Below, piece after piece: positions 15,980 through 18,253 of a stretch of 64,000 nucleotides of DNA (positions are counted from its first letter, which is position 1; each line of letters starts with the position of its first letter). Source of the DNA: Methanosarcina barkeri str. Wiesmoor. GTDB lineage: Archaea; Halobacteriota; Methanosarcinia; Methanosarcinales; Methanosarcinaceae. The DNA is taken from NCBI RefSeq assembly GCF_000969985.1, contig NZ_CP009526.1:3658001-3722000 (forward strand), read 5' to 3'. Both the position numbers and the translations under genes were made by a program. The notes beneath the pieces are model-generated. The model was not told the origin of the DNA. It searched no databases and worked only from the letters and a program-made list of their open reading frames with translations.

Positions 15980-17995
15980 TTATTTTTCCGAATAATTACA
16001 TGAACTACCTTCTTTTTTCTCAAGGGCCTGCAGGTATTCGAGGACTGCGAGGACGTAGGTTGAGTGGGACCAGGCCAGGGGGAGGACAGATACAGGGTTA
16101 CCTCTATCATCGATCTGTTCGGATAGGAGGCCGGTGGGGTGAGCGTGAGCTGCGCACCATTTTAGGAGTTCGAGAGCTCGGTCAAGGTTGCCAACTGCGG
16201 AATGCCACTGTGAGAGCCAGAGAGTGCAGAGAATCCAGCTGTTCATATAGCCAAAATAAGTATCGTGAAGGTACCTGGCAATCCCGCCTGAAGGGCGCTT
16301 AAGCTCGCGTTCAATAGCTTCCATTGTCCGGACGACCCTGGGGTCATCTGGGGGAAGAATCCCGAAGTACCAGACTGCAAAGACTGAGGAATCAAGTGTA
16401 GGGTCGTCAAGAGAACGGCGGAAACGTTTTAGTCGCTTATCGTAAAGTCTCTCCAGAATAGACTTCCGAATAAGGTCTGCAGCTTCCTTCCAGACATTTG
16501 CATTGTCATAATCGCCAAGAGAACGGGAGAGTTCATAGGCTCCGTTGAGGCCTGCATAGACCGTACACGCGCTGTAGGTGTGTATGCCTTTTCGTTCTTC
16601 CCAGAGGTCAAAACTCGAAATTGGAAGGCTTGTTTTCGTATCAATGGCTTTTATAAGATAGTTAGCTGTGGGAATCACAAGTCTTCTGTAGTACCTGCCT
16701 GTTGTCCAGACACTCTTTGCAATTTCCCAGTTGTTATAGAGGGTATAAAGAGGAAGCCCTGTTTCGTCGATTTGAATCATGGGGACAGGATGCCATGTGC
16801 TCCCAAAGTCTCCTGCAGGTGTGTACTTGTGAAGAAAGTTTCCTCTAGGGGTGATGGTTTTTGAAAAAAATTCAAAAGTTTCGGAAGTCAGATGGTGATA
16901 TCTCGCCCTGTCAAGAGCAATGCAGATCCAGGCTGCATCTCTTGGCCAGCAGTAGGTGTAAAGGTCTGCTCCAAATTGCTTTATATCCGAATCGCAAGAC
17001 GCAATTATCGAGCCCGTGATATCCATGTGGGCAACAACTGCAAGGAGACTCCTGTAAAAGCATTTTAAGACACTTTGAGGAAGTTCCGGCATTCGAGAAA
17101 ATTCCGGAAGGACGGATACTCTCTCAATAAACGAGTTCCAGAAATTGAAGCTATGATGGAAAAGGGTTTTTCTTCCGGCTTCCTTTTCCTGTTTATGAGT
17201 CTGAAGCACGCTGCAGTACTTTTTTCCGAGAACTATCCAGTAGTGTAACCTTGTCGATTCTCCAGGCTTCAGTTCGGGAAGGGTCCAGCCAAGGGTGGAA
17301 TCTACCGAGCCATGCGCTACAGGATTCCCGCTAAGAGATGCATCACTTTCCATATCTCTCCAGGTGCCTTCAAGCCCTCTCCACTCTGCAGTTCCAACTG
17401 CATACTGGTCAAACGCAGGGTCACTTGCGTGCAGGAAATATCGGTCGCGCTTGTAATGGATAAGTGTATGTTTATCGATTACAGCCGTTTCTCCGATTTT
17501 GGTCTCAAGAATTCGATAATTCTGGTTTGAGAAAAGACGCAAATGTTTGGGCTTATTAGATGTATTAGTGACCTTAAAAGTCCTGTAAAATATATTTACC
17601 GAGGGGTGAACAGCTTCCCATACAGTGATTCGGAGTCCGATCTCCGGATTTTCGAATACTGTTTCCCCTATATTAGAGACAACTCCCATACAGGCCTCAG
17701 GGATTTCCTGGTTGCCTTCTAGAATCTCGTATTTCCTTCTTACGCCTTTCCTGTTCTCTCCTGAGGTTTCAAGGATACGCTTACAGAACTCCTCCTTAAA
17801 CTCGGATTTATATCTCTGTCGAATCTTCCAGTTTTCAAGCCAGCTGCAATAAAGGGAGTCAAGATCGCATATGCCAACTTTTATAGAGTTTCCGTGATTC
17901 TCAAGTCCTACATATGGAAAATAGATATCCCTTATAGTTCCTTTTTCATCTTCGCAGATCAGGATTCTCCCATTTCCGAAAATTAGCGGCCTAAT
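15980..17995 (-). CDS. Glycoside hydrolase family 15 (glucoamylase-like), apparent ATT start
   Basis: The first ATG (17689) gives 569 aa but loses conserved sequence; the open frame continues upstream with RPLIFGNGRILICEDEKG and IRDIYFPYVGLENHGNS, typical of archaeal GH15 N-termini. AGGAGG lies at 18004-18009 on the minus strand, and exactly 8 nt later is ATT (17995-17993), giving 671 codons. C-terminal (alpha/alpha)6 barrel motifs: YTYCWPRDAAW, FDLWEERKG (catalytic Glu) and LLSEQIDDRGNP...PLAWSHS (second Glu). It probably hydrolyses alpha-glucans such as glycogen or trehalose in the cytosol. No signal peptide. Either a rare start codon or a recently lost ATG. Confidence 0.88.
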   Translation of the reverse strand: MRPLIFGNGRILICEDEKGTIRDIYFPYVGLENHGNSIKVGICDLDSLYCSWLENWKIRQRYKSEFKEEFCKRILETSGENRKGVRRKYEILEGNQEIPEACMGVVSNIGETVFENPEIGLRITVWEAVHPSVNIFYRTFKVTNTSNKPKHLRLFSNQNYRILETKIGETAVIDKHTLIHYKRDRYFLHASDPAFDQYAVGTAEWRGLEGTWRDMESDASLSGNPVAHGSVDSTLGWTLPELKPGESTRLHYWIVLGKKYCSVLQTHKQEKEAGRKTLFHHSFNFWNSFIERVSVLPEFSRMPELPQSVLKCFYRSLLAVVAHMDITGSIIASCDSDIKQFGADLYTYCWPRDAAWICIALDRARYHHLTSETFEFFSKTITPRGNFLHKYTPAGDFGSTWHPVPMIQIDETGLPLYTLYNNWEIAKSVWTTGRYYRRLVIPTANYLIKAIDTKTSLPISSFDLWEERKGIHTYSACTVYAGLNGAYELSRSLGDYDNANVWKEAADLIRKSILERLYDKRLKRFRRSLDDPTLDSSVFAVWYFGILPPDDPRVVRTMEAIERELKRPSGGIARYLHDTYFGYMNSWILCTLWLSQWHSAVGNLDRALELLKWCAAHAHPTGLLSEQIDDRGNPVSVLPLAWSHSTYVLAVLEYLQALEKKEGSSCNYSEK

Positions 17996-18253
17996 TCCGG
18001 ATACCTCCTGTTTTTTTAAATTTTTATGGCCCTACAAATAATACAACTCAGACATTTAAGCTTCAACTCAGGTTCCCAAAATATAGTGACATAATCTAGT
18101 TGAATTATTTTTTTGAATATATAACCCACTATAAAAAATGAATGTATTACCTCAAATAGCTTAGTACAAAATGTTTTTATATTTTAATAAGAGCTGGACT
18201 TTGGCTTTATATTTTGCTCATTTAGCCTTAAAATGTCTTGCTTATTTGCAGTT

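Follow-up and report, generated by a model that had tools for sequence, protein, structure and literature searches.

The bacterial gene infC starts with AUU and is autoregulated by IF3; as it encodes the very factor that reads its own start codon, an autoregulatory loop results. In Streptomyces, sigR begins with GTC behind an extended Shine-Dalgarno (SD) sequence, AGGAGGTG; IF3 represses the gene, which becomes deregulated once it is provided with a canonical start and which has been misannotated in genomes to an upstream canonical start (PMC5472188). In archaea, aIF1 is described in PMC6237735 as destabilising wrong initiation complexes, and work on Sulfolobus cited there assigns to aIF1 a role favouring discrimination against non-canonical starts. 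For Methanosarcina mazei, Ribo-seq has added new small open reading frames (ORFs) with ATG, TTG, GTG and CTG starts (PMC11456600). In the open-access literature, we found no report of AUH starts in Methanosarcina or of conserved non-canonical starts in archaea.

The window, a stretch of 64,000 nucleotides from Methanosarcina barkeri str. Wiesmoor, carries on its minus strand a coding sequence for a GH15 (glucoamylase-like) protein of 671 residues (15980..17995), identified by a PF00723 match, by its orthologues and by dN values much lower than dS, and closed by a TAA stop at 15980-15982. The motif AGGAGG (18004..18009, minus strand) lies 8 nt 5' of an ATT codon (17993..17995, minus strand), the spacer being TATCCGGA (18003-17996), so that direct reading of the minus strand gives CAGGAGGTATCCGGA, ATT, and then AGG CCG CTA ATT TTC GGA AAT GGG, which encodes RPLIFGNG. 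The initial annotation had proposed this ATT as the start codon on the basis of the same order of elements, and its coordinates are exact. An in-frame TAG is found upstream (18032..18034, minus strand); the 12 codons separating it from ATT were read directly and contain no ATG, GTG or TTG, and none occurs in the GH15 frame from this TAG down to codon 103, the first downstream in-frame ATG (17687..17689, minus strand), which bears out the earlier claim that no usable canonical codon is available. A mechanical ORF list places the start at this ATG (17689) and thereby drops 102 conserved residues of the protein. The host's own 16S genes, whose 3' terminal sequence GCTGGATCACCTCCT was found three times, end in GGATCACCTCCT, which is complementary to the SD of the GH15 gene. 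The GH15 gene stands alone between unrelated neighbours, which makes coupling to an upstream gene unlikely, and a search for inverted repeats 5' of it returned only A+T-rich pairs of the kind expected by chance.

The protein matches Glyco_hydro_15 (PF00723) with 94.1 bits against a gathering cut-off of 22 over residues 418-661, in its C-terminal part. It scored 338.2 bits with the oligosaccharide amylase equivalog TIGR01577, for which 820.7 are needed, and is therefore not that equivalog. For the candidate catalytic Glu residues, LWEER can be aligned with the IWEDM segment of a GH15-related enzyme of known structure, and LSEQID, placed by eye, holds a candidate for the second catalytic Glu. 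The protein resembles archaeal GH15 glucoamylase-like enzymes (PF00723, TIGR01577-like) in its C-terminal glucoamylase domain and in an N-terminal strand that follows the start directly and ends in GN. The archaeal GH15 paralogues mostly have ATG starts, whereas the subfamily found in the window as a rule has none. Among paralogues of the normally ATG-started kind, some carry ATT GTC CGA or ATA CCA AAA instead (L082 and L085 in G029 and G005, L075 in G105). Three orthologues of the gene itself are interrupted by in-frame stops or frameshifts (L013 in G029, L069 in G019 and L067 in G017); this may mean that some lineages can do without the gene, or it may reflect errors in draft assemblies.

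Orthologues with 61-96% identity were found in 40 genomes from six genera of Methanosarcinaceae, and none was detected elsewhere in the order at E 1e-110. In the 39 genomes with a readable start region, the aligned start codon was ATT in 25, ATA in seven, ATC in four, and GTT, ACG and ATG in one each; it was thus non-canonical in 38 of 39 and ATT, ATA or ATC in 36. All 39 have GGAGG, GGGGG or GAGGG ending 6-9 nt 5' of this codon, and RPL[IV]F[GS]NG comes straight after it, so that the comparison with sister strains upholds the proposed start and no homologue with a different N-terminus, which the initial annotation had named as a possible refutation, was encountered. Since both the codon and the SD are conserved in 39 orthologues, chance can be ruled out as their origin; a sequencing error at ATT, for which resequencing had been advised, is likewise ruled out, as independent genomes carry the same kind of start codon. 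The lone ATG (G036) occupies exactly the aligned codon behind the same kind of SD, which marks the site as a start. In a tree of 37 GH15 proteins, seven changes suffice to explain the start codon: ATA or ATC is found in the outlying genera and, for the most part, ATT in Methanosarcina, with ATG confined to one tip. In paralogous GH15 genes, ATG mostly stands one codon 5' of the aligned position (MTRHIVLGN, MPKPLVVGN), and a Met within one codon of the site indicates that the family begins here. Comparison with thirteen relatives gave dN of 0-0.03 and dS of 0.17-1.7 for codons 2-30; strong purifying selection covers codons 2-110, is still stronger over codons 2-30 and sets in at codon 2. Use of AUU as the translation start of the GH15 gene is therefore well supported by comparative sequence evidence, and we put its probability at roughly 0.85.

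Similar starts were sought in 1.2 Mb of the same genome (G000) by screening for coding frames that run 5' of the first ATG, GTG or TTG and begin behind an SD, and the candidates were compared across the genus Methanosarcina. The first screen, based on coding potential, was swamped by antisense artefacts in repetitive genes, and anchoring by SD and relatives cleaned the results. A flavodoxin-like gene (L191, G000:C2:284725, + strand; orthologues L192-L218), whose product begins I/M-KILGLVGSPNINGNT, has GGGGG, 7 nt and ATT or ATC, with ATT at 27 and ATC at three of 30 loci; these represent 28 genomes, as L219 and L220 overlap adjoining loci. Among the 28 readable Methanosarcina sequences of a glycosyltransferase gene (L221, G000:C2:584812, - strand; orthologues L222-L248), 16 carry ATA and 12 carry ATT at the start position, mostly behind GRGGT, and none carries ATG, GTG or TTG. 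At the start site of a NifH-like/NifD-like fusion gene (L150-L160, G000:C2:2596720, + strand), the codon differs by species, being ATA at three loci, GTG at five, TTG at two and ATG at one, and as ATA is swapped there with GTG, TTG and ATG, it evidently takes the place of ordinary starts. The CbiG-like gene (L161, G000:C2:440309, - strand) has ATA behind AGGAGG in 30 of 30 sequences, but it overlaps, in another frame, the end of the upstream gene (C-terminus YRRSYLYGVAQEPL), which constrains the bases, so that this conservation is confounded and carries little weight; the gene may have an ATA start or may yield a coupled or frameshifted product. The gene at 339565 has mixed start codons, ATA, GTA, TTG and ATG. 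Two single candidates were also recorded: an ACG behind AGGAGG (G000:C2:380045, + strand) that is ATG in G004, and a candidate CTG start in the G000 sequence of a metallo-beta-lactamase/CPSF-like gene (G000:C2:2721865, + strand).

When 400 kb were set separately against the syntenic stretches from two relatives, 185 genes proved assessable. A canonical start was common to 174 of them, and about five had a near-cognate codon at an SD-spaced site, namely ATA/ATG/TTG, ATT/ATT/ATA, ATA three times, ACG/ATG and ATA/ATA. This suggests such starts in roughly 2-3% of genes, though with n = 185 the sample is small and the value approximate. The GH15 gene is a member of a wider Methanosarcina set with AUH-type starts; this, together with the spread of the start throughout the family, had been missed by the initial annotation.

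Regarding the mechanism, the strong SD (AGGAGG at 8 nt spacing) would position the small subunit at AUU, where the initiator Met-tRNA would pair with the near-cognate codon despite a third-base mismatch for which the SD compensates. The protein would then begin Met-Arg-Pro-Leu, with Met rather than Ile. Output from such a start is expected to be low and sensitive to the stringency of initiation set by aIF1, aIF1A and aIF2, and the non-AUG codon could keep translation of the GH15 enzyme low in the way that IF3 acts on bacterial infC and sigR. We infer decoding as Met, a low or regulated output and an involvement of aIF1 at this start. Since the codon is kept non-AUG throughout Methanosarcinaceae, its most likely role would be to hold translation low and sensitive to stringency. 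Taken together, the sequences of the GH15, flavodoxin-like and glycosyltransferase genes show ATG, GTG or TTG in only one of 97 cases, while 79% of the longer M. mazei genes start with ATG (PMC11456600), which argues for selection keeping the start weak. Nevertheless, because the independent codon changes are few, we consider a regulatory purpose of the GH15 start to stand at about even odds.

The most serious alternative shares this account's view of the start and parts from it over purpose alone: ATT would be the true start, AUH behind a strong SD would initiate well enough in Methanosarcinaceae, and the codon would simply drift. That roughly 2-3% of the 185 compared genes look alike and that the NifH-like gene trades ATA with GTG, TTG and ATG are both in line with such drift, and a mildly weak start may be under little selection. 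The difficulty is that under drift ATG would be expected to return more often: a canonical codon stands in one of the 97 sequences, against the 79% share of ATG among the longer M. mazei genes. With so few independent changes, this counterargument is not strong, and we regard drift as a reading with a chance somewhat short of one half.

The remaining alternatives concern the position of the start. It is very improbable that translation begins further 5', in which case the protein would be slightly longer and ATT would code for an internal Ile. ATT, ATC and ATA are all Ile codons, GTT, ACG and ATG also fit such a position, and the codon pattern taken by itself is compatible with this reading; its exclusion rests on the upstream stops and on indels. 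In about ten species an in-frame GTG is present three to five codons 5', in most of them within reach of the SD so that the two overlap (GGAGGTG); other in-frame candidates lie upstream of the aligned codon in a few species, and it is these species alone that could start elsewhere. The window's genome and most orthologues, however, have no ATG, GTG or TTG between the upstream stop and ATT, and in three species (G005, G018 and G029) an in-frame TGA abuts ATT on its 5' side, which rules out a start further 5' in that frame. Furthermore, the length of the spacer between SD and ATT is shifted by single bases in G030 and G011, which indicates that the spacer is not coding. The GTG at codon -3 sits within the SD in some Methanosarcina and is GTA in the window's clade; limited as it is to some species and lying inside the SD, it was rejected as a start.

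Programmed frameshifting, by which an out-of-frame start would feed the GH15 frame with no initiation at AUU, appears hardly more credible. In some species a short out-of-frame ORF beginning with ATG does close at the TAG within ATTAGG (in G004, ATG AAA ACT ... AAT TAG), but such an ATG is missing beside the site in the window's species and in many others, inspection by eye revealed no slippery site, and the SD spacing suits initiation at the aligned codon in 39 of 39 orthologues. Least probable of all is a start at a downstream canonical codon (here ATG 17689) with the first 102 codons untranslated, which is what standard ORF listing gives, as it is excluded by purifying selection that acts from codon 2, the first canonical codon varies between species from codon 4 to codon 218, and the RPLIFGNG-type N-terminal strand is common to paralogues and orthologues.

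AUH starts are probably a wider habit of Methanosarcinaceae. We tentatively propose, at something below even confidence, that a standing class of genes in this family, perhaps 1-3% of the genome, starts with AUU, AUA or AUC (also ACG, GUA and GUU) behind strong SDs, and that some of these starts are kept family-wide as translational dampers acting via proofreading of the aIF1 type, an archaeal counterpart of the non-AUG starts controlled by IF3. Standard annotation misplaces the starts of such genes, and if AUH starts are normal and selected in Methanosarcina, each genome would contain dozens of proteins with a misannotated 5' end. Methanosarcinaceae would then also offer a genetically tractable system for the study of start-codon stringency by aIF1, aIF1A and aIF2 and of any regulatory use of it.

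Of the described systems, Streptomyces sigR is similar to the GH15 gene in having a conserved non-canonical start (genus-wide in sigR), a strong SD, and a systematic misannotation to a canonical codon. The two differ in that sigR is a bacterial, IF3-dependent regulator gene with a GTC start that has been tested experimentally, whereas the GH15 gene is archaeal, encodes an enzyme, uses AUH and is known from sequence; archaeal initiation, moreover, proceeds without IF3 and relies on aIF1, aIF1A and aIF2. With bacterial infC and pcnB the GH15 gene shares an AUH codon, mismatched at the third base, that has been kept non-AUG over long evolution, but unlike infC it shows no obvious connection with initiation factors. 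Conserved non-canonical starts are already known for a few bacterial genes, and what appears to be new here, judged by the open-access literature, is a family-wide AUH start in archaea.
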